Shown piece by piece: positions 2,365 through 22,025 of a DNA stretch of 33,460 nt. The notes below the pieces were generated by a model, which worked only from the letters and a program-made list of their open reading frames with translations, did no database searches and was not told the DNA's origin. Position 1 is the first letter of the stretch. Every line of letters starts with the position of its first letter. This DNA is from a virus, in the IMG/VR virus record IMGVR_UViG_3300035701_000160, positions 1-33,460 of that record; one strand, 5' to 3'. The translations under genes and the position numbers were made by a program.

Positions 2365-2422
2365 ATCAGGTGTCTTTGAACTAGGGTTCGGAGGCGAAGC
2401 GGGGGGGGCAAGGCCTTGCTAG
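2312..2422 (+). CDS. terL: Terminase large subunit, N-extein fragment
   Basis: A 36-residue frame starting with MSQFTWRPNPGPQEAF, the usual N-terminus of this terminase type (W-x-P-x-P-G-P-Q), and reaching the beginning of the P-loop at GFGGEAGG. It then runs into TAG at 2420. GGAGGA lies eight bases upstream of the ATG, so the start is well supported. The rest of the terminase lies in the -1 frame. Re-reading one base in the run of eight G at 2401-2408 gives GGEAGGGK followed directly by the intein. The sequence is therefore either a single-base homopolymer error, a true frameshift mutation or a programmed -1 shift at the G-GGG-GGG heptamer that is in phase here. Confidence 0.75.
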   Translation: MSQFTWRPNPGPQEAFHKSGVFELGFGGEAGGARPC

Positions 2423-3474: not shown

Positions 3475-4725
3475 TCGGAGAGTCTCCTTGTAGAGGCCCT
3501 TCGGTATGTGCATGTCCCAAAATACACGGCAGTTCTCTTCCGGCGAACGTTCCCAGAGCTTTCACAACCACGAGGACTAATCACGAGAGCACATGAGATT
3601 TGTCCACTCTTCAAGGGTACCTACAATAAACAGGATCATGTATGGACATTTCCCAGTGGCTCAGTACTTCAGTTTAGCCATTTAGAGCACGAAGAGGACG
3701 TCCACAATTGGCAGTCAGCGGAGATCGCATACGCAGGGTTCGATGAACTGACATCGTTTACTGAATATCAGTTTATGTATATGCAGAGCCGTGTTCGTAC
3801 TGTTGCAATTGACCCGATAACACACCAAGTAGTTCCGGCAAGGGTCCGGTGGGCATCGAACCCGGGTAATGTCGGGCATGAGTGGGTTTTCAATCGTTAC
3901 AAGCCTTGGTTGACACGCATCGAAGTTGAGGGTGAACCGAGATGGCCAAGTGGAGAGGTTCACTACTTCAAGACTAAGGACGAAAAAGACATACGAACTA
4001 CTTGGGATGACCAAGACGCGTTATCTCGATCGTTTATTCGGTCTCGTCGATTTGACAACCCTAAGCTGATGGAAGTAGATCCTGGTTATGAAGCTCGTCT
4101 CCAGGGCTTACCGTTAGTGATCAGGATGCAATTGGCCGAGGGCGATTGGGATATTGTCGCCGCGGGGAATGTATTCCATGCAGACTGGTTCAAAGTTATC
4201 AACGAAGTACCCACCGGACTTAGGTGGTTCCGTTATTGGGACTTAGCAGCATCACTCAAAGCACGTGCAAGCTTTACTGCGTCAGGAGCTGTTGCAGTTA
4301 CCAAGACCGGTGACATCATCATACGGGACATGATCCGGAAGAAGATTGAGTGGCCGGATCAAGAAAAGCTCATCAAGCAAACGATCTTAGGCGACGAAAC
4401 TGTTGTCGAAACGGGAATCGAGAAGAAACTCCACGGGATCGCTGCAGTTCAAACGTTCATGAAGGATCCCGAACTTACTGGTCACCGGATCGTCGGTGTC
4501 GACGTTGACACGGACAAACTTTCGAGGGCTTTAGACTGGTCGTCGAAAGCAGAAGCGGGACAGGTTTATCTTGTAAATGGTCCATGGATTCAGTCGTTTC
4601 TCACGGAGTGTTCACTATTTGACGGAATGGGAAAGACTCCTGACGACCAGGTAGATACAATATCTGGTGGCGTCAGAATGGCGGCATCACCTAAATGGCG
4701 AACAATGAAGTTTCTGCACTTGTAG
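2416..4725 (+). CDS. terL: Terminase large subunit: intein plus ATPase-nuclease body
   Basis: This frame encodes the intein (to 3474) and then 416 residues of the packaging motor. The C-extein starts SESLLVEALRYV, completing Walker A. Walker B is IAYAGFDEL, with the catalytic Glu after Asp. The C-terminal RNase H-like nuclease shows three acidic motifs: RYWDLAAS, VGVDVDTDK and DDQVDTISGG. The spliced protein would be about 450 residues, normal for the family. The protein cuts concatemeric DNA and pumps it into the prohead through the portal. The listed first codon (TTG) is not a real start, because the protein must begin at 2312 in the other frame and reach this frame by a shift or because the G-run is miscounted. 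It overlaps the portal gene by 31 bases. Confidence 0.9.
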   Translation: MLVDTPIWTDKAWQTIGDLTTEDRVVAVDGSWSEIEYVSEVYTDHKCYEVAFSNGEEIVADADHLWKVIETGQHFKQHRQYIDYTEGTFTTEQLLTRGVYVKLQNRHGQLSKRFKLPHTDGYEGAQQSLPVDPYVFGYWLGDGSVHTGYFTIGNQDLEEVVELFKLRGLTLEHLSQKYNYRVEPSIKRILDALEVTRFQGETRETVPEVKHIPLQYFMASRSQRLELLRGLMDSDGHCQERGRCEVSLTETTLANDVCTLLSSLGFKYSRSVAPSSFNGESFPSHRMTFTPRIKVFNIRRKGESQILTPPKEHDIAVWIESIESTDIVPTKCIRIKHPSHTFLVGRTMIPTHNSESLLVEALRYVHVPKYTAVLFRRTFPELSQPRGLITRAHEICPLFKGTYNKQDHVWTFPSGSVLQFSHLEHEEDVHNWQSAEIAYAGFDELTSFTEYQFMYMQSRVRTVAIDPITHQVVPARVRWASNPGNVGHEWVFNRYKPWLTRIEVEGEPRWPSGEVHYFKTKDEKDIRTTWDDQDALSRSFIRSRRFDNPKLMEVDPGYEARLQGLPLVIRMQLAEGDWDIVAAGNVFHADWFKVINEVPTGLRWFRYWDLAASLKARASFTASGAVAVTKTGDIIIRDMIRKKIEWPDQEKLIKQTILGDETVVETGIEKKLHGIAAVQTFMKDPELTGHRIVGVDVDTDKLSRALDWSSKAEAGQVYLVNGPWIQSFLTECSLFDGMGKTPDDQVDTISGGVRMAASPKWRTMKFLHL

Positions 4726-7198: not shown

Positions 7199-8023
7199 AT
7201 GATCCGTTCAACGCGTTGGCTAAATAGCACCACTCTCAGCACGCGCAGTATCATGGGTGGGCGGCAGAATATATACCCGCCCAGCAATGCCGGATTGTCA
7301 AGGATTATCAATAGTCCGGGTGGGGATGTTTACGCCGATATTGTAGGTGTGGGTGGTATACCCAGTGCTGAGGCCGTTGGCAATCCGAGTTTGACAGTCA
7401 ACATTGTTGCAGTAGGTATTGCAAACACAGAGGCAGTCGGACAACCAACAGTCGCAGCGGTTGTGAAGCCTACCGGAATAGCAAGTGGTGAGATCATCGG
7501 GCAACCGACCATTGCGAGTTCGTTACAATTATCGGGCATTGCAAGCGCGGAAGTTGTGGGTCAACCAAGCATCACAGTTTCTGTGCAGGTCAATGGAATA
7601 CCAAGTGAAGAACTGGTCGGTACACCCACTATTACGGTGAGCATGACGTTGGTGGGTATCGTAAGCGGCGAACATGTTGGTGTCCCTTCCGTGAGTACAG
7701 ATGTCAACCTGATTGGGATTCCGAGTGGTGAGTTTGTTGGACAACCAAGTATCACTATTGACTTAGGATTGCAGGGAGTTGTTAGTAGTGAACAGGTTGG
7801 CACACCCACTCTTACTTGGGAGAGTCAGACCTGGACGATTCAGTGTATTGGGATTGAAAGTGAAGAGGCACTCGGTGTACCAGTTATCATGGTCGTACCA
7901 GATCTGTCATGGCCGCCAGTCGTATGGATACCGGGCGTTCACAGACGCGTTGTTGTCCAAAGCGTGGTGTTTGAAGACAAGGATGGGGTCATCAGAGTTA
8001 TAACGTCTGAAATGCTCATCTAA
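7199..8023 (+). CDS. Repeat protein, eight 20-residue GI-S-E-VG-P units
   Basis: A 274-residue protein. Eight units of exactly 20 residues run from residue 53 to 212, each following the scheme G-I-x-S-x-E-x-V-G-x-P-x-I-x-V; a ninth, degenerate one starts at residue 218 after a five-residue insertion. The regular spacing suggests a solenoid or a string of short beta hairpins. There is a 52-residue N-terminal region and a C-terminal beta segment of about 45 residues. It starts on the base after the previous stop. Placement in the head module suggests a capsid-attached fibre or surface decoration. Repeats of this kind are known to me from phage and bacterial surface proteins, but no function is established. 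Confidence 0.6.
   Translation: MIRSTRWLNSTTLSTRSIMGGRQNIYPPSNAGLSRIINSPGGDVYADIVGVGGIPSAEAVGNPSLTVNIVAVGIANTEAVGQPTVAAVVKPTGIASGEIIGQPTIASSLQLSGIASAEVVGQPSITVSVQVNGIPSEELVGTPTITVSMTLVGIVSGEHVGVPSVSTDVNLIGIPSGEFVGQPSITIDLGLQGVVSSEQVGTPTLTWESQTWTIQCIGIESEEALGVPVIMVVPDLSWPPVVWIPGVHRRVVVQSVVFEDKDGVIRVITSEMLI
7355..7834 (+). repeat. Eight tandem 60-bp coding repeats
   Basis: Each 60-base unit encodes one 20-residue repeat of the overlapping gene. The units have diverged in DNA sequence but not in length, with unit starts at protein residues 53, 73, 93, 113, 133, 153, 173 and 193. This indicates selection on the protein period and not recent DNA duplication. Confidence 0.75.
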
Positions 8024-8561: not shown

Positions 8562-10248
8562 AGATGGTCCCGCGAAGACTCCCGTTTGTGTCTACAAGAA
8601 GGATACTGGTGCAAAGGTAGGATGTACCACGGTGGCAAAGAAGAAGGCCTACCTCGCCGCCCTGAATGCCAATGCGAAGAGCGCGATCGATGTGGAAGCG
8701 ACTGTCGAGTTCGAGTTGCCAGATGAGCTCGACCTCACCCCACTGTTCGCGGAGTCTGATTCGAACATCCAATTCTGTTCGCTCTTCATCACGAAGGCAG
8801 TGCAAGACTCTGACGGGACGCGTCGTATCAAGGCCGTCGCGAGTGACACCTTTGAGGACACGTTTGGACAGCGGATGACCCTATCTCTCTTCCAGGACTT
8901 CCTGACCCGAATTGCAGAGGACATGCCAGCTCCACCTCCCTACGGTTCGGCGGCTTGGAAAGGTGGTATGCCCTACCTGAGCGTCGCGCACTATCTTGAT
9001 CAGGGTGGCCAGGCAGTCGTTGGTACACCGACGAATGTGTGGGTCGACGATAACCATTTTCGGTTCAAAGCCGATATGGCCAAGAGTGCCCTTGCTGAGA
9101 AGGCATGGGGTGCAATCAAAGCGGACATTGCGGACAACGTTCCCGACGAAAAGCGGGTACGTGTTAGCATCGCGTTCATCGATTGGGAACATGTCCATGC
9201 GGACGGAACACACTTCGCACGCAAGAGTATTGTGGAGGTGTGCCCTGTGTGCATCCGCGGCGCGAAGCTCAAGGAGTATGTCAAGGGGCAACTTGTTCAC
9301 TTTGCCCTTACGCGGGTGCCTATAAACGTGAGGACGCCCATCATGATCGAGAGATCCAGTGTGGACGGTGTTATCAAAAGTAAGAAAGACGACGCCGCAG
9401 CGATTGTTGGTGAAGACCTTGCGGAGGAGCTCGACAAGCGAGAACGAGGCACGGTCGTCGACAAGAGTGCTGCTGCGGTTGTTATTCGGGCTGACGCGGT
9501 GGTCACACCGACGCCAGTAGCGGTTGTTAGTGTGGTGGACGCAGCTAACAAGCCGTATGGTGGTGCTACGACTTTGGCCGGAGCTTTGGATTACATAACT
9601 GCTCAGAGGTTGACCTGGAAGTTTTCAGATCTCTTCTGGACGGTTCGCGATGTGATCTGGAATGCAATCGACAGTCCTATGGTGTCTGAGAAAGCCGCCG
9701 CGATCGAAGGGATCCTAGGAGAGATGCAGGACCAGTTTTCACAAGAAGCATTGATGGCCTTGTCGAAAGTCTCCACTCCAGTACCAGTAGTACCAGTAGT
9801 ACCAACAGTAACAAGTCAAACGGAGGTGTCAACAATGTTGAAATCTGACCATCCGTTAGCTGCTCAACTGGAGGCAATCGCCACGGCCTATGACGGCGTG
9901 GTAATGAAGAGCGATCTCACTCGTACTCAGAAGTTCGAACCGATCCAGAAGGCCCTGGATGCTCTGGGTCTTACGATCAGGAGTGCAGTGAACGCGTCGA
10001 CTCCGACTTCCACGGCGGACGTGGAGGAAACAATTCGACGTGTGCTGGGTGAGATGCTGCCAGCGTTCATGCCCGCATCGGTTCCTGTAGCTAACGGATC
10101 ACAATCGCCAGCGCCTCGGCAAGTTCAGCCTCAGGCGGCGGCGACGTTTAGAGCGACTGCTGCGGCGGACGCTAAGCCAAACCAGTTGAGAGATTTGGCT
10201 CGGCGGTCCGTCGGTTTGCCAGTCGGGGAGGGAGTGCCCAATGTCTGA
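8542..10248 (+). CDS. Prohead protease fused to scaffold
   Basis: A 568-residue protein. The N-terminal segment (PYTVREDGPAKTPVCVY, then GC and a Lys-rich helix) is a small module often seen at the start of phage proteases. The middle, about residues 70-260, resembles capsid maturation proteases: VRVSIAFIDWEHVH, then LVHFALTRVPINVRTPI, which matches the family's end motif of L-x-x-x-S/A-L-x-x-x-P-x-N. A long acidic, Ala/Val-rich region and a Pro/Val linker (about residues 413-426) follow, then a scaffold-like helical C-terminus. The start at 8542 has GAGAGG upstream. It overlaps the capsid gene by eight bases. The catalytic Ser and His were not assigned. Confidence 0.65.
   Translation: MPYTVREDGPAKTPVCVYKKDTGAKVGCTTVAKKKAYLAALNANAKSAIDVEATVEFELPDELDLTPLFAESDSNIQFCSLFITKAVQDSDGTRRIKAVASDTFEDTFGQRMTLSLFQDFLTRIAEDMPAPPPYGSAAWKGGMPYLSVAHYLDQGGQAVVGTPTNVWVDDNHFRFKADMAKSALAEKAWGAIKADIADNVPDEKRVRVSIAFIDWEHVHADGTHFARKSIVEVCPVCIRGAKLKEYVKGQLVHFALTRVPINVRTPIMIERSSVDGVIKSKKDDAAAIVGEDLAEELDKRERGTVVDKSAAAVVIRADAVVTPTPVAVVSVVDAANKPYGGATTLAGALDYITAQRLTWKFSDLFWTVRDVIWNAIDSPMVSEKAAAIEGILGEMQDQFSQEALMALSKVSTPVPVVPVVPTVTSQTEVSTMLKSDHPLAAQLEAIATAYDGVVMKSDLTRTQKFEPIQKALDALGLTIRSAVNASTPTSTADVEETIRRVLGEMLPAFMPASVPVANGSQSPAPRQVQPQAAATFRATAAADAKPNQLRDLARRSVGLPVGEGVPNV
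9835..10248 (+). CDS. Nested scaffold protein, internal start
   Basis: Inside the protease gene, GGAGGT at 9822-9827 lies seven bases before an in-frame ATG at 9835, a stronger ribosome binding site than that of the full gene. Initiation here would yield a 137-residue protein identical to the C-terminus of the fusion: helical, polar, Ala/Pro-rich, as scaffolds are. It starts right after the Val/Pro linker, a natural domain border. This is the arrangement of lambda C and Nu3, in which the internal product is the scaffold around which the capsid protein assembles. Translation from the internal start is inferred. Confidence 0.65.
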   Translation: MLKSDHPLAAQLEAIATAYDGVVMKSDLTRTQKFEPIQKALDALGLTIRSAVNASTPTSTADVEETIRRVLGEMLPAFMPASVPVANGSQSPAPRQVQPQAAATFRATAAADAKPNQLRDLARRSVGLPVGEGVPNV

Positions 10249-11440
10249 TCTACAGGGCGAACTCATCCTCGACCTCGCATCGGCTGGACACAAAGATACG
10301 TTCGTGGCAGGCCAAGCGCCGGCCGCGGTGGTGATGCGTTCCGCCGATCCTAACATCTTCCCACCCTATGCTCTGCCGATCGACTTCGCGGCTCAGTTCC
10401 CCACACCACTCGACACTACCGAAATCATCGCGATGTGCGAGGAAACGACGCTGCTCAAGTTCATCCCGGAAGAGGGTACGGGTCTGAAGACCGTGCTATG
10501 GCGTGAGCTAAACGAGCTCGCGTTCACGTCCGGTTCGGTGTCAATCAGCTTTGCCGATGGTACATGCCCCGAAGAGTTTCGACACGATGGTGACAACTCG
10601 TACATTGACCTCAAGAACATCGGCATCAAGAAGACTCTGGGCCTCAGCGACATCATGCACTCGGTCGCCTCGATCGGCGCTGGCTATGGCATCAGTGCCC
10701 TGCTCGGGCCGCATCCGTCGGGTGCTGGCATGCCAGGTGGCGGTGACGTCGCCACGTTCACGATGACCAACATCGCAAATCTGAAAGAGAAGGAGATGCA
10801 GCTAGGCGAGATCCTGGTCTTGAATGGCTGGGACAACCTTCTCGTGAACGGCGACCACACCATCAATGCCCTCGAGCCCGACGGCATCGTCAAGCTCCTG
10901 GCAACCGGTTCGTGCTCGGCGACGTCCACGGGCACGTTCGACGCTCTCAGCTACAACCGCTTCCTGGGCGAGAACTGCATCAAGCCGCAGGTCATCATGG
11001 GCCACCCGGCCGCGATCCAAGAGATGATGTCTGCGTTCTTTACGCTCGGTTGGGCTGGAACCGGTAATGGTTCCATACAAGTCATCACCTATCCCAACGG
11101 CAACCGCATCACTCCAGGATACAACTTTGACTCATTCGTCAACACTGGAGTCGGGCGTATTCAAGTCGTTGGCGATACCAACTTCCCGCGGACGGATAAC
11201 CTCAACGGGACGTTTACCGCTCGCCTCTATGGCCTGCGCATGACTCACAACGGGGTCAAGTTGGTGTACCGGGCTACGCAGATTCCGTTGGCCTTCAAGG
11301 ACCTGACTCCCGGGTGTACCACCATCGCGTTCGAAATGTGGGCGAAGACCGCTCTCATCATCAAACACAAGTGCGCTCACAGCGTCTACTCCGCAGTCTT
11401 CTCTGGCAACATCCGAACCTGCTGCCCAGTAATCCTGTAA
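10241..11440 (+). CDS. Major capsid protein
   Basis: A 399-residue protein following the protease-scaffold gene with an 8-base overlap and a GAGGGAG ribosome binding site, the usual position for the coat protein. Its length fits an HK97-fold coat. The N-terminal 70 residues are polar, and a Gly-rich stretch follows at about 150-170. The long alpha-beta core (MTNIANLKEKEMQLGEILVLNGWDNLLVNG) is consistent with a capsid A-domain. The C-terminus is Cys-rich (HKC, CC), as if disulfides or metal binding were used. The call rests on synteny and size; HK97-fold residues were not identified. A hairpin follows at 11449. Confidence 0.75.
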   Translation: MSDLQGELILDLASAGHKDTFVAGQAPAAVVMRSADPNIFPPYALPIDFAAQFPTPLDTTEIIAMCEETTLLKFIPEEGTGLKTVLWRELNELAFTSGSVSISFADGTCPEEFRHDGDNSYIDLKNIGIKKTLGLSDIMHSVASIGAGYGISALLGPHPSGAGMPGGGDVATFTMTNIANLKEKEMQLGEILVLNGWDNLLVNGDHTINALEPDGIVKLLATGSCSATSTGTFDALSYNRFLGENCIKPQVIMGHPAAIQEMMSAFFTLGWAGTGNGSIQVITYPNGNRITPGYNFDSFVNTGVGRIQVVGDTNFPRTDNLNGTFTARLYGLRMTHNGVKLVYRATQIPLAFKDLTPGCTTIAFEMWAKTALIIKHKCAHSVYSAVFSGNIRTCCPVIL

Positions 11441-11543: not shown

Positions 11544-12254
11544 GTGAGTTACGTAGTTATAACGCCAACTCTAAACCGATCAACACGTATGCTTCAAGCG
11601 ACTCAGAGACTGTTCGAGTCAGTGCGGGAACACGAGATTACGGTGTATGCAGTGTTTGATTCGGACGACACGGAGAGCGTCGAGTCGGTGCGCAAGTTGT
11701 TTCCGCAGGTGCGTCGGATAGTAGTAACCCCTCCGGCTACGCCAATTTACAAGTGGAACGAAGGACTTAGGGAAGCAGCGAAAGACTCGAACATGACACA
11801 TGTGGTACTCGGAGCCGACGACGTTAGCTGGCATGATGGATGGCTCGACGAAGTTTCAAAGGTCAGTTCAGGACTCGTGGGTCTGAATACACTCGAGTAC
11901 GGAGAGAGGCACTGTACACACTTTGTGCTTACACGACAGTTTATTGTTGAAGTCAACGGTGGCGTGATCTTCACACCCCATTACAAACATCTCTTCGCCG
12001 ACAATGAAATATTGGCTCGGGCACGACAAGTTGGGGCGTTTCAATATTGCCCCAACGCAATAGTAGAGCATCTACATCCTGCTCACGGCAAAGCCCGTCT
12101 TGATGATACATATACGCGGGCAACGGCTTTCTGGAATGAGGACCAAGCGACTTACGAGCGTCGTGTGGCAACAAACTTTCCATGTGATTACGAGGCAGTA
12201 TGCACCCTTTCGTCGTCTATACCTATTACTACAGAAATAGTTCAGCAGGCTTGA
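11544..12254 (+). CDS. Glycosyltransferase, family 2-like (GT-A)
   Basis: A 236-residue protein starting with GTG at 11544; GAGGG lies four bases upstream. The N-terminal YVVITPTLNRSTRMLQATQRLFES is the usual GT2 beginning, followed by an Asp-rich strand (AVFDSDDTESV) and the metal-binding-like GADDVSWHDGWLDE. The C-terminal half has the acceptor-side pattern NEILARARQVGAFQYCPNAIVEHLH. GT2 enzymes transfer a sugar from a nucleotide sugar to an acceptor. It opens the island and overlaps the next gene by 55 bases. The sugar and acceptor cannot be told. Confidence 0.75.
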   Translation: MSYVVITPTLNRSTRMLQATQRLFESVREHEITVYAVFDSDDTESVESVRKLFPQVRRIVVTPPATPIYKWNEGLREAAKDSNMTHVVLGADDVSWHDGWLDEVSKVSSGLVGLNTLEYGERHCTHFVLTRQFIVEVNGGVIFTPHYKHLFADNEILARARQVGAFQYCPNAIVEHLHPAHGKARLDDTYTRATAFWNEDQATYERRVATNFPCDYEAVCTLSSSIPITTEIVQQA

Positions 12255-13201
12255 GAGCTTGCCACCTGCTTGTGCATCGTTTGAATGCTCTTGGCGTGGC
12301 GGCGTACTCATCTCAAGCACTCGTCAATCCTGAGTGGAATGAGCCAGTATGGCAGTCGCAAAGTGATCCGTTTATCGCTGTCTACCCTGAGGTAGTCCAT
12401 GGCAATCCACTCAATGCAAAGTACGTCATTCGCTGGTTACTAAACTATCAGGGCAGACTTGGTGGACCGAAGGAGTATCCAAGTAGTGATTTGGTCTTTG
12501 CCTATTCCGGCGATATTGCTGCCGCCGCCCCTCGCGTTGATGGGCTATTGTATCTATCAATCGTTGAGGATGAGTTATTCTTTGATCCGGGCGATGTGCA
12601 GCGCGAAGGAACGTACTATTGGGTTGGTAAGGGACAAAGGCCAGTGAAGCCGCAAGGTGTCGAGATTACTGCTGGGTGGCCCGCAACTCGAGCCGAACTT
12701 GCTAAATTACTTCAGTCCGCAGCCCTCCTAGTAACTTACGACGATTATTCCTCATTGACTGTCGAGGCAGCACTTTGTGGGTGTTTGACAGTACTTGAGC
12801 CAGGATCTCGTCTGTACGATCGAGTCGAAGTTGTTACCGCTCATCGTAAGCGACAAAGTGAAACTGCAAAGCAGCTAAATGAGTTTGTTGAACTCGCGCG
12901 ACGTCTTACTGGCGAGTCCAGTCCAGCAATCGCAAGCACAGTAGTAGCCCCGGTAGTGGCCGCACCCACTTCGGCAGTCTTGCTAGTACGTTTTGGCTTG
13001 GGTCGCGAGCTTATCGAGGGCCCCGTCACCAAGAAACAGTACATTTTTTATTGCCGTAACAACATCTGTGCGTCACCGGTAGATCCACAGGACGTTTCGA
13101 GACTACTCGAGATGATGGGTGCGTGCTGCGGTGAAGCGCCAAAGAGGAAGAAGTTTCACGCCGCAAACCAATCAGAGGAAATTCGGTGGTATCAATTGTA
13201 A
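12200..13201 (+). CDS. GT-B-like glycosyltransferase fused to a small phage domain
   Basis: A 333-residue protein. Residues 1-235 look like a GT-B glycosyltransferase: SAGLRACHLLVHRLNALG at the N-terminus and a sugar-nucleotide site YDDYSSLTVEAALCGCLTVL near 180-199. An Ala/Val/Pro linker (246-257) joins it to a C-terminal domain (258-312) with LVRFGLGRELI, KKQYIF, PVDPQDVSRLL and ACCGEA. A closely similar layout forms the separate 98-residue protein at 21109, so this fusion combines a sugar-transfer enzyme with a domain also found in the tail module. The domain may target the enzyme to the virion. It overlaps genes on both sides. Confidence 0.6.
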   Translation: MHPFVVYTYYYRNSSAGLRACHLLVHRLNALGVAAYSSQALVNPEWNEPVWQSQSDPFIAVYPEVVHGNPLNAKYVIRWLLNYQGRLGGPKEYPSSDLVFAYSGDIAAAAPRVDGLLYLSIVEDELFFDPGDVQREGTYYWVGKGQRPVKPQGVEITAGWPATRAELAKLLQSAALLVTYDDYSSLTVEAALCGCLTVLEPGSRLYDRVEVVTAHRKRQSETAKQLNEFVELARRLTGESSPAIASTVVAPVVAAPTSAVLLVRFGLGRELIEGPVTKKQYIFYCRNNICASPVDPQDVSRLLEMMGACCGEAPKRKKFHAANQSEEIRWYQL

Positions 13202-13824
13202 TTGTAACTTTTGGCAGGCCGGACCTAATTGCAAAGTTCTTTGGTTGTATTCCAACGCCCTCGTGCAAGCATGAATACGTTGTAGTCGACAACATGCCAA
13301 GTGAAACGACGCGACGAGTTCTTGAAGGTATCTCCCAGCAGCGCCCAGTACGACTTGCATTCAACGAGTCGAACGTTGGCTTCGGTCCTGCTTGCAATCA
13401 AGGAGCTCGTCTCGCGCAATACAATACTCTCGTGTTTACACAGCCCGATGTTACCTTTATGGAGGATGTGACCCCCAAAGTTGTGAACCTAGCGGATGGA
13501 ACTCTCTATGGCGCACGTCTCATTACGTTTGACACAAGTTGGAACCGGTTTGGGTCTACGATCATCTCGTACTTAGAAGGGTATTTCCTGGCGTGTACGC
13601 GTCCGACCTGGACCGTTATTGGTGGATTCGACCCTCAAATTGTTCCGGCTGACTACGAGGATGTTGATTTATGTTATACAGCAACCCAGAAGGGCGTGCA
13701 GCTACGCGAACTGCCAATTCGTGCGAGTCATGTCTGGGGTGCCCATTGGAATGGTAATCCTGGAAGACAAGCTATTACAATGCGCAACCGTGCGTACTTT
13801 GCCCAAAAATGGGGCTTTGCATAA
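13186..13824 (+). CDS. Glycosyltransferase, family 2 (GT-A)
   Basis: A 212-residue protein starting with GTG at 13186, with GAGGAA upstream, and overlapping the previous gene by 16 bases. It shows the GT2 pattern: VSIVIVTFGRPDLIAKF at the start, then VVVDNMPSE, then ESNVGFGPACNQGARLA, the substrate loop shared with rhamnosyltransferase-like members, and PDVTF in place of DxD. GGFDPQIVPADYEDVDLCYTA near residue 150 is the usual GGFDE-x-F-x-x-Y-x-E-D-x-D-L motif, slightly altered. It probably adds a hexose or deoxyhexose; the acceptor is unknown. Confidence 0.8.
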   Translation: MVSIVIVTFGRPDLIAKFFGCIPTPSCKHEYVVVDNMPSETTRRVLEGISQQRPVRLAFNESNVGFGPACNQGARLAQYNTLVFTQPDVTFMEDVTPKVVNLADGTLYGARLITFDTSWNRFGSTIISYLEGYFLACTRPTWTVIGGFDPQIVPADYEDVDLCYTATQKGVQLRELPIRASHVWGAHWNGNPGRQAITMRNRAYFAQKWGFA

Positions 13825-13835
13825 AGGAGTGTAAC

Positions 13836-14060
13836 ATGATCAAGTTTTGGGAGTTGCTTCAAGAGAGTGTGATCATTCAAGGTGTTGTGACGTTGGTGTT
13901 GGTCGTGACTCTCTGTACGATGTTCATCACCGGGAAGCCGATTCCTGAATTGCTCGGCGCGATCACAACGTTGGTGTTGGGATTTTGGTTTGGCACGAAA
14001 TCACAACGGGCCATCGTTACAGCGACCAAAGCAATGGCGGAGTCGAAGCACAGTAAGTAA
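13836..14060 (+). CDS. Small two-helix membrane protein, holin-like
   Basis: A 74-residue protein with GGAG six bases upstream of its ATG. It has two hydrophobic segments, at about residues 12-30 (VIIQGVVTLVLVVTLCTMFI) and 40-53 (LLGAITTLVLGFWFG), with a short charged loop between them and a basic, Lys-rich C-terminus. This topology fits a small holin or a membrane anchor. A holin normally sits with lysis genes and no endolysin is visible nearby, so a membrane role in the glycosylation system, for example next to a lipid-linked sugar, is an equal possibility. No family was identified. Confidence 0.45.
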   Translation: MIKFWELLQESVIIQGVVTLVLVVTLCTMFITGKPIPELLGAITTLVLGFWFGTKSQRAIVTATKAMAESKHSK

Positions 14061-14072
14061 GGAGTAAACAAG

Positions 14073-14963
14073 GTGGGAATGAAAGTTGTTCTTAGTGGTG
14101 TGTATTACCCGATGGCCATCGTGCGCTACTTTGAAAGGGCGCTACGACGCAGGGACGACATCGAACTCTGTACCGTCGGCCGCTATACTGGGAAGACGAT
14201 CCCGTGGAATGGCGGTATGATTCTCAATGTATCCGCACCGCCACCCGACCTGGTACTGACCAGCTCTCGTACTCCAATCAGTTACGTCGAGGCGCACCTA
14301 TTATGGAAGCCCGATGTGTGGATTCAACTCAACTCGACGGAAGGATTGATCGGCAAGCCGTCTAAGGGTAAGAACTTTGTCGTCGGTGTCGATCCACACT
14401 GCATCAACTATGATGAAGCTCGCCAATGGGCAGACGTGTTCTTCTGTATGCAGACACCGTATATGCGTCCTGATGACATTTGGCTACCATATGCGTACGA
14501 TCCTTCGTGTCACACACCGAATACAGACTGTACAAGGGAGCGACCATATGATGGAGGCCTCATCGGAGCACCTTACATCAATCGAGTAAGGCTCGTCGAA
14601 AGCCTACGAGCGCAGGGACACAAGATCCTCTTCCCTGGCTTCGGGCCTGTATTCGGGGAGTATCGTGATCTTTTGCATACCTGCAAGATCGGCCTGAACT
14701 GGTCAACGCAACAAGACCTATGCGCGAGGGTCTTCGAGGTAGCGGCCATGGGCTTGTGCCCGGTTGTGAATCGCGTGCCGGACCTCATGAAGATGGGTTT
14801 CGTCGAGGGCAAGCACTACTTGGGCTTCGACTCCCTCGACGAGGCGCTAAGCCAGTTCAAAGTGGCTCTTGGCAAGTGGCAGGAAATCAGTCAACAGGCT
14901 TGTGAGTTCGTGGCGCCACACACTTGGGACGCTCGAGTCGAGACGGTATTGTCCTATGTCTAG
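14073..14963 (+). CDS. CgeB-like glycosyltransferase (GT-B)
   Basis: A 296-residue protein starting at GTG 14073; GGAG lies eight bases upstream, and the ATG at 14079 is the alternative start. Its plan matches CgeB-type GT-B proteins: an N-terminal domain with KVVLSGVYYPMAIVRYFERAL, then a central linker and a C-terminal domain with FPGFGPVFGEYRDLLHTCKIGLNWSTQ, ARVFEVAAMGLCPVVN and the end pattern HTWDARVETVLSYV. The E of FEVAAMG corresponds to the conserved Glu that holds the nucleotide sugar. The substrate is unknown. It overlaps the next small gene by eight bases. Confidence 0.7.
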   Translation: MGMKVVLSGVYYPMAIVRYFERALRRRDDIELCTVGRYTGKTIPWNGGMILNVSAPPPDLVLTSSRTPISYVEAHLLWKPDVWIQLNSTEGLIGKPSKGKNFVVGVDPHCINYDEARQWADVFFCMQTPYMRPDDIWLPYAYDPSCHTPNTDCTRERPYDGGLIGAPYINRVRLVESLRAQGHKILFPGFGPVFGEYRDLLHTCKIGLNWSTQQDLCARVFEVAAMGLCPVVNRVPDLMKMGFVEGKHYLGFDSLDEALSQFKVALGKWQEISQQACEFVAPHTWDARVETVLSYV

Positions 14964-15213
14964 AGACATTGAGCAGGCAGTGATGCTTCCCAACGGTACC
15001 ACAGTAAAGCGCCAGACTACACTTTGGGTCCGGGAGTGGGGTGCAATGGTTGCAACTGCCCAGTACGACAAGCACTTTATCTATGCAAACAGTGTTGTGA
15101 ATCAGCCATCGTACATGTGCACCTGCGGTTCGTCGGCGGGGGTCGTACCTCGAGGCCCGAATGGCAGATTTCAGTGTCTGTTCCTCTTGAGTACAGGTAG
15201 GCACCAGTCATGA
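14956..15213 (+). CDS. Small CxC protein in the glycosylation island
   Basis: An 85-residue protein beginning at ATG 14956, which overlaps the previous stop by eight bases. Residues 52-60 contain YMCTCGSSA, followed by a Gly/Pro loop and RFQCLFLLSTGRHQS. The C-x-C and the later Cys and His could bind a metal ion. Small proteins with this plan occur in tailed phages, but no function is assigned. It overlaps the following glycosyltransferase by four bases (ATGA), so it is co-translated with the enzymes and may be an acceptor, a regulator or a partner. Confidence 0.5.
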   Translation: MSRDIEQAVMLPNGTTVKRQTTLWVREWGAMVATAQYDKHFIYANSVVNQPSYMCTCGSSAGVVPRGPNGRFQCLFLLSTGRHQS

Positions 15214-15926
15214 GCAAGATCATTGTGCTCCTGAGGACCTTGAACGAGGAGATTCACCTTCCACGCTTTTTGGCTGCATATGACTGGGCTGATCTTATCA
15301 TCATAGCAGATGGTGGGAGTACCGACCGCACATGCGAGATCGCACGAAATACTCCTAAAGTTGAATTGCAACACTTCAACGTCTGGGTAGAGAACGCAAA
15401 AGGGGGCAGGCGCAATCCAGAAGGGCCCCACATGAACTTCCTGCTTGAACAAGCACGTTATGCCTTCCCATCGTGGATAATCATCGATGAAGCCGATTCG
15501 GCGCTTTCGCCCTCACTCAGGCAAGATGGTCGTGCAATCCTCGAAAGCACCGCCGAGCAGTTTGTATTTGCACCGCGGATGTATATCTTCGGTACGGATA
15601 AATGGTTTCCCGATCTAACCGGAGGTAGTGGTTACACTCCAGAAGGTTGGACTGGAATGTGGGCGGTTCGAGGAGATGTGCCGTTAGCATATAATCAAGA
15701 CGAGTCCTGGAGTCCTGATGTTATACAACCCCCTCAGTCAGGATGGACGATTCGGCGAATCACCTATCCTTACGCATTGCTACACTACTTCTGCCTCACG
15801 CCAGAGATCATGGCGCGTAAGCTCGCGCTTTATCGGTCAGCCGGCATGATTCAAAAGAGTTGGACCGAGACAAGTGGTCCGCTCGTGGAGCTTCCGGAAT
15901 GGGCATACCCAACTTATTACAAATAA
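15210..15926 (+). CDS. Glycosyltransferase, family 2-like (GT-A)
   Basis: A 238-residue protein starting in an ATGA overlap with the previous gene. KIIVLLRTLNEEIHLPRFLAA and LIIIADGGSTDRTCEIA are the two opening GT2 motifs, the second carrying the nucleotide-binding Asp. IIIDEADSALSP near residue 92 is in the place of the DxD metal site. The C-terminal half (HYFCLTPEIMARKLALYRSAG) resembles GT2 enzymes that act on lipid or polysaccharide. The donor and acceptor are not known. It overlaps the methyltransferase gene by 28 bases. Confidence 0.75.
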   Translation: MSKIIVLLRTLNEEIHLPRFLAAYDWADLIIIADGGSTDRTCEIARNTPKVELQHFNVWVENAKGGRRNPEGPHMNFLLEQARYAFPSWIIIDEADSALSPSLRQDGRAILESTAEQFVFAPRMYIFGTDKWFPDLTGGSGYTPEGWTGMWAVRGDVPLAYNQDESWSPDVIQPPQSGWTIRRITYPYALLHYFCLTPEIMARKLALYRSAGMIQKSWTETSGPLVELPEWAYPTYYK

Positions 15927-16447
15927 TAGGTCCAGGGATCGAGTCGATGAGGATCGCGAACTTGGGGAGCGGCAAGTCCGACTCACCCGTCAGCTTGCAA
16001 GTTCGCTATCTGCATTGTGCGCTCTTGATGAACGTTGACATCTACAAGCCCTACGTCGACTACTTGCAAACGCAAAAGTTCGCGGCAGGGGTTGTTGAGT
16101 TTACTTGTAAAGATGTCGTATTGTGGCTGGCTGAGCAACCGGAGGGTGAGTATGATGTGGTGCTCCTAATCGATTTGCTCGAGCATTTTGAGCAGGCTCG
16201 AGCAGGGTTCGTGGTGCGACTTTGCAAGCATGTCGCCCGCCGCAAAATCATTGTCTTCTCACCGCTCGGCGAGTGCAAGCAAGGACCGTCTGATGGAAAT
16301 GGCTACCAGAGGCATCTGAGCACATTGACTTCAGCCGGACTCGAAACGTTGGGATTTCGAGTTGAGGTGCTGCCCGCATTTCATAGGCACTTTGACCCGC
16401 CAGTCGATGCGGGGTTAGCAGTTATGGAGGTGGGGGAATGGGATTGA
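15899..16447 (+). CDS. SAM-dependent methyltransferase
   Basis: A 182-residue protein. Motif I is MRIANLGSGKSD, the glycine-rich SAM loop; the acidic turn (NVDIYKPYVD) follows; and YDVVLLIDLLEHFEQA is the motif with the D-x-L-E-H of class I methyltransferases. The start at 15899 is preferred because GGAG lies eight bases upstream; 15947 and 15860 are alternatives. It overlaps both neighbours. In a glycosyltransferase cluster such enzymes often methylate a sugar hydroxyl or cap a glycan, so the likely substrate is the glycan made here. That step is inference. Confidence 0.75.
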   Translation: MGIPNLLQIIGPGIESMRIANLGSGKSDSPVSLQVRYLHCALLMNVDIYKPYVDYLQTQKFAAGVVEFTCKDVVLWLAEQPEGEYDVVLLIDLLEHFEQARAGFVVRLCKHVARRKIIVFSPLGECKQGPSDGNGYQRHLSTLTSAGLETLGFRVEVLPAFHRHFDPPVDAGLAVMEVGEWD

Positions 16448-17469
16448 AAGTAGACTTTTTATGCCCGTCGGGGTCTCCGATTGGTGTCATGCCAGAGGAC
16501 ATCGGGGGTCGCGGAGTTGGTGGAGCTGAGTTGGCTCTCTTGACCTTAGCAGAAGTGCTAACGGGAAGGGGCCATACCGTGACCGTGTTCAATTCTCCCA
16601 GAAAGGAAGGTACATATGGGGGTGTGCCTTACCGCGCAGTAAGCGCGTTTGACCCGAACGCTGATAGGGATGCGGTTGTCCTGTTTAGGTGTCCCGACAG
16701 GCGATTCCAAAGTGCGAAAGGGAGAAGGGTCTTCTGGTCGTGTGATCAATTCACGACAGGCAACTACGCAGCGGACATCTTTCCACACGCCGAGCGTATT
16801 GTTTGTATCTCACCTCATCATGCAGCTGACTTTGAAAGGCGCTACGGAATATCTCAGGAGCGACTGACTGTGATCACCCTAGGTGTACGTACGTGGGAGT
16901 ATATTTCGAATGCTCCCAAGGTCAAGGGTCAATGTATCTATTGTAGCGTTCCTGATAGGGGCTTACGAATCCTACGAAACGTTTGGGATCGCATCGTCAA
17001 GGAGGTGCCATGGGCGTCGTTAGTGATAACGTTCGATTATCGGATGTGGGGAACCGCTGACGAAGGCATCACGCCGCATCGACTTGAGTGGGTGGGTGCG
17101 CCGAATGTCAAGTACTGCGGTCGCGTGCCTAGGTCACAATTGGTACTATTACAGTCGACGTCGGATCTGCAGCCCTATCCTTGTATCTACGACGAGTTGT
17201 TTTGTATCTCTGTCGCTGAGTGTCAGGTAGCGGGGGCAGTGCCCATTACTTCGTCGATGGGTGCCCTTGCAACAACGAACTTGTATGGCAAGCGACTTGA
17301 TGGAGATCCGAGGACGGCTGTGTGGCAGGCAGCGTTCGCAGAGGAAGTTATCAACACGCTTCTGACACCTAATACGCTAACGATTCGTCAGGCTCTTTGT
17401 ATGAACTCTCGCAGAGCAGCGTTCAACTGGGACATCCTCGCCGTGCCCTGGGAGGCGGTTCTATCATGA
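16438..17469 (+). CDS. GT-B glycosyltransferase, family 4-like
   Basis: A 343-residue protein overlapping the methyltransferase by ten bases. The N-terminal domain has GGRGVGGAELALLTLAEVLTGRGHTVTVF, the acceptor-loop and first-helix pattern of GT4. The hinge has IVCISPHHAADFERRYGI and VITLGV. The C-terminal part has DLQPYPCIYDELFCISVAECQVAGAVPITSSMGAL, the nucleotide-sugar site with its Glu. It likely extends the same glycan. It shares a four-base ATGA overlap with the next gene. No donor specificity can be deduced. Confidence 0.8.
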   Translation: MGLKVDFLCPSGSPIGVMPEDIGGRGVGGAELALLTLAEVLTGRGHTVTVFNSPRKEGTYGGVPYRAVSAFDPNADRDAVVLFRCPDRRFQSAKGRRVFWSCDQFTTGNYAADIFPHAERIVCISPHHAADFERRYGISQERLTVITLGVRTWEYISNAPKVKGQCIYCSVPDRGLRILRNVWDRIVKEVPWASLVITFDYRMWGTADEGITPHRLEWVGAPNVKYCGRVPRSQLVLLQSTSDLQPYPCIYDELFCISVAECQVAGAVPITSSMGALATTNLYGKRLDGDPRTAVWQAAFAEEVINTLLTPNTLTIRQALCMNSRRAAFNWDILAVPWEAVLS

Positions 17470-18560
17470 AGATTGGAATCGTCTCCGACTTTGATTTTGT
17501 GGGTTCAGGGTACTTGCATATTGCGACTAACCTGGGGACTGAGTTAGTTCGTCGAGGACATGAGGTCATTGCCTTTGGCATTGGTTATCGAGGTGAGGAG
17601 CATCACTTTCCATATTCAATTGTACCCCTGCCCCGTCAGTCCTTCACACAGGGTGCGAATACGATGGCGAGGAACTTGATTCGTGAGAAGCTTCTCGACG
17701 TAACCATTGTGGCGCTAGACATTCCCATGATCATTCGATTGCTTGGGACCCAGCCAACAATCGAGTTGCCCCACTATGGGGTGTTTCCTGTTGAAGCGCC
17801 GCCACTGACTCAGAACTGGACCGCGGCGTTGTATCAGTTGAAAGGTTGCTTTGTGATCTCCGAGTTCGGGACCGAGGAGTGTCACAAAGTGGGACTAGCT
17901 GCTGAACACGTCGCGATCCCAGTCGACACGAAGTCGTGGAGACCTCCGACACCTGAGGAACGTGTCGCGATTCGACAAGCAATGGGTATTGCGGAGGGAC
18001 AGCGGGTCGTTCTCACGGTAGCCGAGAACCAAGAACGTAAGTTCCTTAGTGCGTCACTCGAGATCATCGCAAGAATGGATAACGTCGTGTACTATATGGT
18101 TACTCGGCGCGACTCAGGTGTTGGGTGGTATTTGGACGACTACATCGTCGAGTTGGGCCTGGCGGGTAAGGTAACTATCGTCGAGAGGGGCATACCATTC
18201 AAACAGCTTTGGTCTTTGTATGCAGCATCTGATGCATTTCTCATAACGTCAAAAGCTGAAGGCTTGGGCATGCCCGTGCTTGAGGCTATGGCATGTGGTG
18301 TATCTGTTGTAGCTCCTAATCATACAGCGTTCCACGAACACCTATCCGGCGATAGAGGTTACCTGTTTTCTTACGCTTACGCGGATCGAGAACCGTTTGG
18401 TAACGGCTGGCGCTATTATGCAGACATCGAAGACGGTGCGCGGGCCTTGGAATGTGCCTTTGCGAACTCAGAATACGTTCATAGCAGGGCACTCGAGTAT
18501 GTGAAGGCTCGAACTTGGGAAGCGGTGGGGGAGGTCATATGTCGCAAGTTGATGTCGTGA
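17466..18560 (+). CDS. Glycosyltransferase, family 4 (GT-B)
   Basis: A 364-residue protein starting at ATG 17466 in an ATGA overlap. It has a complete GT4 layout: GSGYLHIATNLGTELVRRGHEV at the N-terminus, VISEFGTEECHKVGL and VAIPVDTKSWRPP at the hinge, then VERGIPFKQLWSLYAASDAFLITSKAEGLGMPVLEAMACGVSVVAPNHTA, the E-x7-E nucleotide-sugar motif. This is the clearest glycosyltransferase in the island. It overlaps the next gene by 22 bases. The acceptor is unknown. Confidence 0.85.
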   Translation: MKIGIVSDFDFVGSGYLHIATNLGTELVRRGHEVIAFGIGYRGEEHHFPYSIVPLPRQSFTQGANTMARNLIREKLLDVTIVALDIPMIIRLLGTQPTIELPHYGVFPVEAPPLTQNWTAALYQLKGCFVISEFGTEECHKVGLAAEHVAIPVDTKSWRPPTPEERVAIRQAMGIAEGQRVVLTVAENQERKFLSASLEIIARMDNVVYYMVTRRDSGVGWYLDDYIVELGLAGKVTIVERGIPFKQLWSLYAASDAFLITSKAEGLGMPVLEAMACGVSVVAPNHTAFHEHLSGDRGYLFSYAYADREPFGNGWRYYADIEDGARALECAFANSEYVHSRALEYVKARTWEAVGEVICRKLMS

Positions 18561-19333
18561 TCCCGGTCTATGGAAGGCCGGACATGCTTAAAAGTTGTCT
18601 TGAAGCCCTCAAGGCACAGACATTTACAAGCTTTGCGATCACGGTTGTTGACGATGCATCGCCAAAGGGCCTTGTGAGCGAGAACATTGCTGAGCTATGC
18701 AAAGAGTATGAAGCACGTTTATTTGTCAACAGTGCCAACTCAGGCTTTCCGAAGACAGTAAATCGAGGGGCACGCAAGTGCGACGCGCCATTCATGCTTC
18801 TGTTGAACAGTGATGTTATGTTACGTCCTAACGCACTCGAAGTCTTGATAAGCGAAATGGCGGCGCCTGACGTTGGCATTGCCGCACCAATGCTTTTGTT
18901 TGCCGAGAACTCGCCTATGGGACCTGCAGGCAAGATACAGCATGTTGGAATGGCGTTCAACGTTACAGCAACACCCGTTCATATCTTCTTGGGTTGGAGC
19001 GTTGACAATCCGAGAGCCGTAAGGCGTCGGGACGATTGGCCTTGCGTAACAGGAGCATGTTTCCTCACACGTCGCGCAACGTGGCGCAAGGTCGGCGGTT
19101 TTCAAGAAGTTTATGGCAGGGGGACGTTCGAGGATGTGGAGTTCTGTCTTACCGTGCGGAAGGTGCTGGGTCACAAGATCGTTGTGAATCCGGAAGCCAT
19201 TGGAGAACACGTTGTAGGAGCGAGTGCCATCGGCCAACCGGGCGGCAAGGGCTACGATCTACGCGGTAACTTCCAAGTCTTCATTACACGTATGCGCCAG
19301 TTCGTTGAGCATGACGATTACCACTTCTGGTGA
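18539..19333 (+). CDS. Glycosyltransferase, family 2 (GT-A)
   Basis: A 264-residue protein beginning at ATG 18539, with GGGGAGG four bases upstream. VDVVIPVYGRPDMLKSCLEALKAQTF, VVDDASP, NSANSGFPKTVNRGA and LLLNSDVMLRPNAL with its metal-binding Asp are all classic GT2 motifs. Further on, GACFLTRRATWRKVGGFQEVYGRGTFEDVEFCLTVRK is the GGF-x-E-x-F-x-x-x-x-E-D-x-E/D-x motif that holds the acceptor. It closes the island, and the neck genes start three bases after it. The transferred sugar is unknown. Confidence 0.85.
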   Translation: MSQVDVVIPVYGRPDMLKSCLEALKAQTFTSFAITVVDDASPKGLVSENIAELCKEYEARLFVNSANSGFPKTVNRGARKCDAPFMLLLNSDVMLRPNALEVLISEMAAPDVGIAAPMLLFAENSPMGPAGKIQHVGMAFNVTATPVHIFLGWSVDNPRAVRRRDDWPCVTGACFLTRRATWRKVGGFQEVYGRGTFEDVEFCLTVRKVLGHKIVVNPEAIGEHVVGASAIGQPGGKGYDLRGNFQVFITRMRQFVEHDDYHFW

Positions 19334-20366: not shown

Positions 20367-20802
20367 GTTCTCATTTCGGATTCCAACGTTTGCTGGTGCC
20401 GCATCGAAGCTCGACTTAGCAGTACGTACTGCAATGCTCGAGTCACTTCGAGAAGCTGGTTTGCCTGCCGCCCAGGAGGCATCAGCTAACGCGAGCATTT
20501 CAGAGAGTATAACGATTGTGATGCCCTATCGCTACTCATCTGGAACGGCATGGTCAGCAGGGCTTCGAGTTCCGGCGAAGTATCTTTACGTTGAACGTGG
20601 AACGGGCGTATTTGCTGGACACTCGTCTTGGATTGTCGTGCCGAAGCGCAAGAAAGCTTTGATGTTTGCTAATGGGCAGTTCGCGATGATGGCGGAGGTT
20701 TTGGGTCAACCAGCTCGACACTTTCTTCAAAAGGGCGTTGCAGCTGCACGCCAGAGGTTTGATATATGGTGCCGCTCGAGCTTGTTCAAAGCGCTCTTGT
20801 AA
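20356..20802 (+). CDS. HK97 gp10-like tail/neck protein
   Basis: A 148-residue protein with the pattern of the HK97 gp10 family: an amphipathic N-terminal helix (ASKLDLAVRTAMLESLREAGLPAAQEASA), a beta core with SGTAWSAGLRVPAKYLYVERGTGVF, a strand with IVVPKRKKALMFANG, and a C-terminal GQPARHFLQKGV. These are minor tail or neck proteins that join head and tail. It overlaps the previous gene by 11 bases and the next by 37. Confidence 0.65.
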   Translation: MRRKFSFRIPTFAGAASKLDLAVRTAMLESLREAGLPAAQEASANASISESITIVMPYRYSSGTAWSAGLRVPAKYLYVERGTGVFAGHSSWIVVPKRKKALMFANGQFAMMAEVLGQPARHFLQKGVAAARQRFDIWCRSSLFKALL

Positions 20803-21203
20803 ACTACTTGCTTTCACGGGTTGCGGTCACGACCATTGTCGGGATCGACGTCCGCGAAGACGAATGGCAGGGTGCTGACTTTAGGTATCCATGTGTACGT
20901 GTCGGTGTTGACATGGTCACACCGATGGTATGCTCATACGATTTCAATCTGACCATCATGGCCTTCTCGGAAGAGGCATCGTCACGTCAAGCGGCAGTCC
21001 TGTGCACTACTTTAGTGGATGCACTTGAAGGGTTGCGTGTGTATCACGGGTTACTGCGTCCCGAGATCGCAGCTGGGTTGGCGGTGGGTTTCAACTCGTT
21101 GAGGCTATATGTCAAAAAGATCTTGGGTCCCTATCGAACCGCTCCTCGAATCTGGAGAGGCGATATTATCTGTTGGGTTAGCTGCTTCGAGTGCCCCAAG
21201 TAA
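20766..21203 (+). CDS. Tail completion (terminator) protein, probable
   Basis: A 145-residue protein in the place where the tail terminator is found, between gp10-like and tail tube genes. It begins with MVPLELVQSALVNYLLSRVAVTTIVGIDV, a helix and loop usual for tail completion proteins, and has a beta-alpha-beta core (YDFNLTIMAFSEEASSRQAAVLCTTLVDAL). The length fits the family. It overlaps the next gene by 95 bases. No catalytic residues are expected. Confidence 0.5.
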   Translation: MVPLELVQSALVNYLLSRVAVTTIVGIDVREDEWQGADFRYPCVRVGVDMVTPMVCSYDFNLTIMAFSEEASSRQAAVLCTTLVDALEGLRVYHGLLRPEIAAGLAVGFNSLRLYVKKILGPYRTAPRIWRGDIICWVSCFECPK

Positions 21204-21405
21204 AGTAGGGGTTCGGAGCTTAGTAACGTTCGAATATGTCTTTCAGGGTAAGCAGCAGCGCTATAGATTCCCGCCCTTAGGCGAGCTGCTAGTGGATCTT
21301 GAAGACAAGGACGCCTTGTTGGCCATTGTGTCAGCGGCGGCTGGCTGCTGTGGCAATGAGACGGTAGGCGGACATCCTTACTTTATGGAGGTACCATGCC
21401 ATTGA
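21109..21405 (+). CDS. Small CCG-domain protein of the tail module
   Basis: A 98-residue protein with GAGG five bases before ATG 21109. Residues 38-85 hold a compact domain: VTFEYVFQGK, KQQRYRFPP, VDLEDKDALL and AGCCGNE. The same order of elements makes up the C-terminal domain of the GT-B protein at 12200, with Y-x-F, then V-D-x-x-D and a final CCG. The two are probably paralogous modules. Its function is unknown. Its place beside the tail tube gene suggests a virion protein, and the Cys pair could bind metal or form a disulfide. Confidence 0.5.
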   Translation: MSKRSWVPIEPLLESGEAILSVGLAASSAPSKVGVRSLVTFEYVFQGKQQRYRFPPLGELLVDLEDKDALLAIVSAAAGCCGNETVGGHPYFMEVPCH

Positions 21406-22025
21406 TCACAGGTACTCCTTTAGGGCCCATCACTTCGCAAGCGGATCTGTTTTGGGATGGCGCGCCCAACATCTGGTTTCAGAGCAATGCGGCAAACCCC
21501 CTCTACAATCCCGATAGTGATGGTTTCTACTGGGGGCTCAGTGCCACGGTAGCTCAGCCAGTGTTCGAGCTTGGGTGCTTTGACACTGTCGTTTTCACGG
21601 AGAACCTGACGATGAACGATGTCGTCTGTGATTCGGCAGGGTTCAAGGACACCATCCAGCGACGTAACTACCTCGAGTTCACGTTCAACCTTTCAACATT
21701 GCTTCCACTCACGACCATCCGCGATCTGATGAACATCAGTGCGGTTACCGTCAGCGGTGGTATAGCAAAGGTTGGCATCGGCACGATCGACAACACCAAG
21801 TTGTTCCGTGTCTATGCGGCGAAGGTCTACGACGAGAGCGTTGGCGACTACATCGCCTTCACGTTCCACCGTGTCAAGTTTGTCGACGCGTGGAGCCTCG
21901 CCATGACCTATGGCGACCGCTGGAAACTGACTGGGCTAAAGGCGCGGGCGTTCGCCAACACGGCGTACCCGTCCGCACAATACTTTGCAACGATCCTCAA
22001 CCTGGATCCGAGCATCTATCCGTAA
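21396..22025 (+). CDS. Major tail (tube) protein
   Basis: A 209-residue, beta-rich protein directly upstream of the tail assembly chaperone, the usual place of the tail tube subunit. GGAGGT lies three bases before ATG 21396, a strong ribosome binding site fitting a highly made protein. The order of strands (VAQPVFELGCFDTVVFTENLTMNDVV, then RRNYLEFTFNLSTLLPLT, then IAFTFHRVKFVDAWSLAMTYGDRWKLTGLKARAF) with a late loop is consistent with the tube fold. It stacks in rings around the tape measure. Confidence 0.65.
   Translation: MPLITGTPLGPITSQADLFWDGAPNIWFQSNAANPLYNPDSDGFYWGLSATVAQPVFELGCFDTVVFTENLTMNDVVCDSAGFKDTIQRRNYLEFTFNLSTLLPLTTIRDLMNISAVTVSGGIAKVGIGTIDNTKLFRVYAAKVYDESVGDYIAFTFHRVKFVDAWSLAMTYGDRWKLTGLKARAFANTAYPSAQYFATILNLDPSIYP

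Follow-up and report, generated by a model that had tools for sequence, protein, structure and literature searches.

The C-terminal end of a putative phage glycosyltransferase and a 98-amino acid protein encoded next to a putative tail tube gene are, with little room for doubt, homologous members of one new protein family, the former being joined in frame to its enzyme. Both genes lie in a viral contig of 33,460 bases (IMG/VR record IMGVR_UViG_3300035701_000160), the whole of which was analyzed and is called the window here. As judged from sequence profiles, the family is undescribed in the libraries searched and falls into two subfamilies, DP1 and DP2.

Two Open Reading Frames of the Window Share an Ordered Motif

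The fusion gene (12200..13201; this and all following features are on the plus strand) is an open frame of 333 codons with a GAGG ribosome-binding-like site 4 bases 5' of its ATG (12200). It encodes a putative glycosyltransferase part (residues 1-247, 12200..12940), a linker rich in Ala, Val and Pro (12941..12970) and the C-terminal DP1 domain (residues 258-333, 12971..13201). The linker is evident from its composition; the first six residues of the domain model have a pLDDT <50, and no start codon preceded by a ribosome-binding site lies inside it. The stand-alone DP2 gene (21109..21405) encodes 98 amino acids with a folded domain at approximately residues 32-95. In both open reading frames the elements Y-x-F, V-D-x-x-D, L-L and CCG follow each other in this order, as the initial annotation of this DNA had pointed out, and none of the other open reading frames of at least 40 amino acids in the window has it. 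The annotation had also let the domain of the enzyme span residues 258-312 (to 13135), with CCG as the final element. Both statements have to be corrected. Homology reaches the stop at 13201, and the Cys-Cys-Gly (C309, C310 and G311; 13124..13132) is located in a loop before the last strand, which in the enzyme is followed by one more helix.

In principle, the 333-amino acid frame might be read as two products, with a separate DP1 protein made from the GTG at 12956 and no functional fusion. Such a protein would have 80 amino acids, the size of a stand-alone DP1. However, this GTG lacks the preceding Shine-Dalgarno-like sequence that is seen with most genes in the window, and the N-terminus M-[IV]-x-N-x-x-G that is common in stand-alone DP1 proteins is absent there. 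We consider two separate products very improbable.

Searches of residues 1-247 against Pfam, NCBIfam and PDB sequences revealed no match to a glycosyltransferase profile or a solved structure. The enzyme half is 26-27% identical to 374-amino acid proteins encoded in the sugar-gene clusters of two viral contigs (L003 and L004), and shares with them the stretches YPE-x-x-x-GNPLNAKYVIRW and LCGC-x-TVL. Unlike the fusion, these proteins lack a C-terminal DP1 domain. An initial alignment of the entire fusion to the L003/L004 proteins was rejected, because it misplaced enzyme residues of the latter on the domain. Context within a glycosylation island and the L003/L004 relatives point to a putative glycosyltransferase, and the label GT-B, given to it in the initial annotation, is plausible from this context and the 26% identical relative.

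Sequence Profiles Link the Two Domains

Pairwise, the resemblance of the two domains appears close to chance. BLASTP of the enzyme C-terminus against the 98-amino acid protein gave no match, and a gapped local alignment of both domains scored 36 where shuffled sequences averaged 24.2 (SD 4.5), a difference of 2.6 SD (p = 0.024). Neither small domain matched Pfam, PHROGs, NCBIfam or PDB sequences. Each domain was also used as a query in BLASTP and tblastn, with nothing useful found; tblastn matches on phage records with E values of 0.5-9 were judged to be chance, and several of them ran antisense to the coding sense of the query, in tail genes. A DNA pattern search for V-D-P-x-D-A-x-x-L-L-x-x-G matched 40 viral stretches and zero family members. 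Slight likeness to the DP motif was also seen in proteins of other phages encoded in L028 (122-853) and L045 (1365-3143 and 3092-3448), which have V-D-P-x-D-[AV]-x-x-L-L-x-x-G-F and no significant profile match.

Since neither domain matched the libraries, relatives were gathered using the neighboring genes as bait. A search with the putative tail tube protein identified seven related contigs, and six of these encode a small protein directly 5' of the tail tube gene (none was found in the seventh, L059 on contig G009). We built a DP2 profile from six tail-tube-side proteins of other phages, with the window excluded, and searched 9,729 open reading frames of the window and the loci. The profile matched the 98-amino acid protein (9.3e-8) and, less strongly, the C-terminus of the enzyme (1.1e-4), and it also revealed small proteins encoded just 3' of the capsid gene in other phages. 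The capsid protein as query recovered nine contigs, and a search with a capsid alignment yielded 54 loci. A DP1 profile made of five capsid-side proteins, again excluding the window, matched the enzyme C-terminus at 1.1e-8 among 10,387 open reading frames, the best non-family frame being at 0.78. Finally, DP1 and DP2 profiles, both without the window, were compared with each other (probability 97.1, E value 6e-11, score 59). In the controls, 60 column-permuted profiles reached a best score of 14 and the reversed control reached 26. The enzyme tail alone matched the DP1 profile with 97.5% and the DP2 profile with 95.8%.

Homology is accepted because profiles lacking the window recover both domains, while the controls are far lower. 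Chance or convergence of short motifs of low information could be argued from the pairwise significance, which is merely about 0.02, but both domains were recovered by profiles without the window, and the controls gave no such match. The profile tests refute this explanation, and its remaining probability is negligible. The profile search that the initial annotation had suggested as a check hence links the two domains and does not put them into unrelated families.

The Fused Domain Is Assigned to the Head-Side Subfamily

Six tail-side proteins have the pattern G-x-x-[ST]-x-x-x-Y-x-F ... V-x-x-x-D-x-x-x-L-L ... C-C ... F-E-L. Of the two neighboring Cys residues after the helix, both are invariant in DP1 (16 aligned members); in DP2 one is invariant and the other mostly kept. 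Stand-alone DP1 proteins typically end in ...CCGxKxxxFxYANExDVRRWTNGGGR, and DP2 proteins end in ...CCGxxxxxxxFEL. The enzyme tail ends in ...CCGEAPKRKKFHAANQSEEIRWYQL, and its AANQSEEIRWYQL aligns with the A-N-x-x-x-x-x-R-W of the C-terminal helix of stand-alone DP1, which is absent from DP2. In an alignment of the fused domain and eight head-side proteins that stand alone, the F, V, CCG, A and W columns are conserved. In a tree of 29 domains, the fused copy clusters with DP1 and the 98-amino acid protein with DP2; support is lacking for most branches, and L120 and L121, both from the head side, are placed with DP2. Searches of Pfam, PHROGs and NCBIfam with every aligned member returned no family beyond single weak hits. 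Three of the stand-alone DP1 proteins (L163, L145 and L165) have N-terminal extensions of about 40-60 residues.

Because the DP1 signature tail and the gene order agree, we assign the fused copy to DP1, as a fused variant. The enzyme carries the copy of the head-side type, and not a duplicate of the tail-side protein, with the 98-amino acid protein as the tail-side paralog, DP2. The earlier proposal of a single domain present in the enzyme and in the tail module holds at the level of the family, but has to be refined to two subfamilies, of which the enzyme has the head-side type.

DP1 and DP2 Occupy Separate Positions in Related Phages

In the relatives the genes are arranged in the order capsid gene, variable genes, DP1, RmlD and/or GT2, GT-B, further island genes, neck genes, terminator, DP2 and tail tube. 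The major capsid gene of the window (10241..11440), which adjoins the head-side position, has a weak PHROG head-protein match and relatives of 50-100% identity in 54 viral contigs. The slot between the capsid gene and DP1 differs in gene content among phages. In the window it holds an extra GT2 gene (11544..12254; named from gene order and a weak Glycos_transf_2 match, 8e-4) and the enzyme half of the fusion. The fused gene lies directly 5' of the same GT2 gene as in the relatives (13186-13824 in the window), and the rest of the glycosylation island (GT2, GT-B, methyltransferase and GT4; 13186..19333) is supported by Pfam matches and by relatives that are ordered alike. Within the island, a small protein (14869-15213) contains C-T-C-G and one further Cys in a zinc-ribbon-like manner; it is found in the islands of many relatives and has no Pfam match.

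DP1 was present in 44 of the 54 capsid loci, corresponding to 39 distinct proteins. All but one of these are stand-alone proteins of 73-147 amino acids encoded between the capsid gene and the island; the exception is the 333-amino acid protein, the only in-frame fusion of DP1 with a putative glycosyltransferase among them. The gap from the capsid gene to DP1 measures 47-8,476 bp (median 723); between DP1 and the first island marker, the median is 563 bp. Of the ten loci lacking DP1, eight are on contigs that break off within the capsid gene or <1.7 kb 3' of it. The remaining two, G023 and G024, are one lineage with the capsid protein and no DP1 in 19 kb downstream; here, only one glycosyltransferase like those of the island is encoded, and the usual island order is missing.

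On the tail side, DP2 of the window is encoded between the tail terminator (20766-21203) and the putative tail tube gene (21396-22025). The tube protein has no PHROG match and is assigned from gene order, its gene being placed between the terminator and the tail assembly/tape measure genes, as in the relatives. Of 23 other contigs in which this region can be read, 22 have DP2 directly 5' of the tail tube gene, the exception being G009. Thus, the observation that one copy is joined to a putative island enzyme and the other stands beside a putative tail tube gene was borne out. Cys residues are also invariant in the capsid proteins of the group (C107, C359 and C378, L062 numbering) and in the putative tail tube proteins (C61 and C78). 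A covalent or metal link through the invariant Cys of capsid, tube, DP1 and DP2 is possible.

The identical fusion is carried by contig G001 (IMGVR_UViG_3300035659_001009), which equals the window over 20.3 kb; the one difference there is a gap of 3 bases near position 7320, and it does not touch the fused gene. Present in two near-identical contigs, the fusion counts as a single evolutionary event, which took place when a putative glycosyltransferase gene of the variable slot was joined in frame to the DP1 gene. G001 overlaps window positions 1-20316 and 29728-33460, and the order of these two overlaps is circularly permuted, which suggests that the genome, of about 63 kb, is circular or permuted; the second of them contains 38 differing positions, mostly clustered in its first 300 bases.

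Predicted Structures of Both Domains Have the Same Topology

AlphaFold2 models were computed from 13-16 family members. The DP2 model of the 98-amino acid protein (pLDDT 78, core blocks >90) consists of strands at residues 32-37, 43-46, 51-54 and 59-63, a helix at 64-72 and a strand at 92-95. The model of the DP1 domain of the enzyme (pLDDT 85.2; model residue 1 is protein residue 249) has strands at 12-16, 22-25, 32-38 and 41-46, a helix at 48-55, a strand at 71-73 and an extra helix at 76-83. Compared by topology, both models share the order beta-beta-beta-beta-alpha-beta. The elements of the motif take equivalent places: strand 3 bears Y-x-F, strand 4 closes with V-D, the helix contains L-L, and CCG is on the loop that leads to strand 5. 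At the level of topology, the models thus do not go against the proposal of the initial annotation.

Foldseek searches of the models against the PDB and viral models gave no match at E <0.001. The best structural match of the DP2 model was the B domain of GINS subunits (for example, 8ouw_A and 5ghr_B; Z 5.3, rmsd 1.8, 49 residues). This Z score is in the range of common arrangements, the domain is not among the best matches of the DP1 model, and the biology of GINS (replication helicase) is unrelated to the setting of DP1 and DP2. VIA-align also listed the C-terminal domain of lambda gpFI (PDB 2lsm) for the DP2 model, a poor match (Z 4.0, rmsd 5.8, 54 residues). The packaging chaperone gpFI binds the head, and its small domain is encoded by a gene directly 3' of the lambda capsid gene. 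However, gpFI has no CCG motif, and hhalign of its C-terminal domain, represented by a single gpFI sequence, against DP1, DP2 or both gave a probability <0.1. The likeness to gpFI is an analogy at most, and both GINS and gpFI were rejected as names for the fold, the resemblances being too weak.

The Family Marks a Phage Group Known From Metagenomes

The capsid protein, tube protein, DP1 and a conserved island enzyme had no match among 50,697 isolate phage records, and searches of 84,980 bacterial and archaeal species genomes with the DP1 and capsid profiles gave a match for neither. DP1 and DP2 mark a widespread phage group that is known only from metagenomes. Several further features of the window were observed. 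The large terminase gene (2387-4725) is interrupted directly behind the Walker A motif by an intein-like insert that matches LAGLIDADG, and the N-terminal part of the terminase lies in another reading frame, with a switch at a run of eight G (about 2399-2407) where G001 is identical. An HNH endonuclease gene (1148-1657; Pfam 3.5e-12) is found 5' of the terminase genes. A gene at 7199-8023 encodes about eight short repeats (G-I-x-S-x-E-x-x-G-x-P) and matches a minor tail protein PHROG (3.4e-27), although it lies 5' of the capsid gene.

Discussion

What might a small domain of the head side do at the end of a glycosyltransferase? In the initial annotation, the domain had been suggested to bring the enzyme to the virion or to bind the modified protein; such binding may be predicted from the conserved positions beside the capsid and tube genes and from the fusion. 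Because DP1 and DP2 each keep close to the gene for a single bulk protein of the virion, we infer a role in the head for DP1 and in the tail tube for DP2. DP1 and DP2 would bind the head and the tail tube, respectively, or their unassembled subunits. The fused DP1 would then hold the enzyme on its acceptor. The capsid protein is the probable acceptor, and would thereby be glycosylated efficiently during assembly. Tethering of the putative enzyme to the head by DP1, as suggested by gene position and by the fusion, is the most likely mechanism, though we propose it tentatively. For the explanation as a whole, in which DP1 is joined to a putative glycosyltransferase, DP2 is its paralog, binding to head and tube is predicted and the enzyme is held on its acceptor, belief and doubt are evenly balanced. 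Against tethering speak the distance of DP1 from the capsid gene, which reaches 8.5 kb, so that DP1 may belong to the island and not to the head, and the related enzyme of L003 and L004, which works, if at all, without the domain. The explanation as a whole is weakened by the single fusion event, by the lack of a profile match in the enzyme half and by G023/G024, which do without DP1.

The main rival assumes that DP1 still does its ordinary work, either in the head as a minor protein or as a helper of assembly, and only puts up with the enzyme at its N-terminus since the stop codon between two adjacent genes was lost, with no targeting involved. The slot between the capsid gene and DP1 varies in its genes among phages, up to about 60 extra residues are tolerated at the N-terminus of DP1 elsewhere, and a single fusion was seen, all of which would fit such a passenger. 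On the contrary, the neighbor that was joined is a putative glycosyltransferase and not another cargo gene, and an A/V/P-rich linker lies between the two parts; we regard a passenger fusion as rather unlikely. Alternatively, DP1 and DP2 might be parts of the glycosylation machinery, such as sugar acceptors or carriers, perhaps via their conserved Cys, and not bind the virion at all. DP1 keeps its place 5' of RmlD/GT2, whereas its distance from the capsid gene is variable and can reach 8.5 kb, the Cys-Cys is invariant, and the capsid lineage without detected DP1 (G023/G024) is also without the usual island order. DP2, however, lies outside the island; in 22 of 23 contigs it directly precedes the tail tube gene, with no sugar gene there, and a role as island subunit for both proteins is distinctly unlikely.

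Extending the tethering proposal, DP1 and DP2 could form a pair of address domains that guide phage glycosyltransferases to two bulk virion surfaces, the head and the tail tube. Domain and enzyme would then be partners that act as separate proteins in other phages, a relation laid bare by the fusion. This generalization is speculative and, in our judgment, somewhat improbable. Within the literature found, there was no account of how phage glycosyltransferases choose capsid and tail proteins. If it is true that DP1 addresses an enzyme to the head and DP2 to the tail, the rule is testable with two short recombinant proteins.

A comparison can be made with mycobacteriophages. Phage-encoded glycosyltransferases and glycans on the major capsid proteins are described for Che8 and Rita (PMC11256854, citing Freeman 2023). 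The excerpted account of Che8, Rita and Maravista mentions no family like DP1/DP2, and in Maravista the glycosyltransferases are encoded near the 3' end of the genome (PMC11256854), whereas the island of the phage described here is located between the capsid and neck genes. Like this phage, however, Che8, Rita and Maravista have several glycosyltransferase genes, and the acceptor reported for them is the major capsid protein (PMC11256854).
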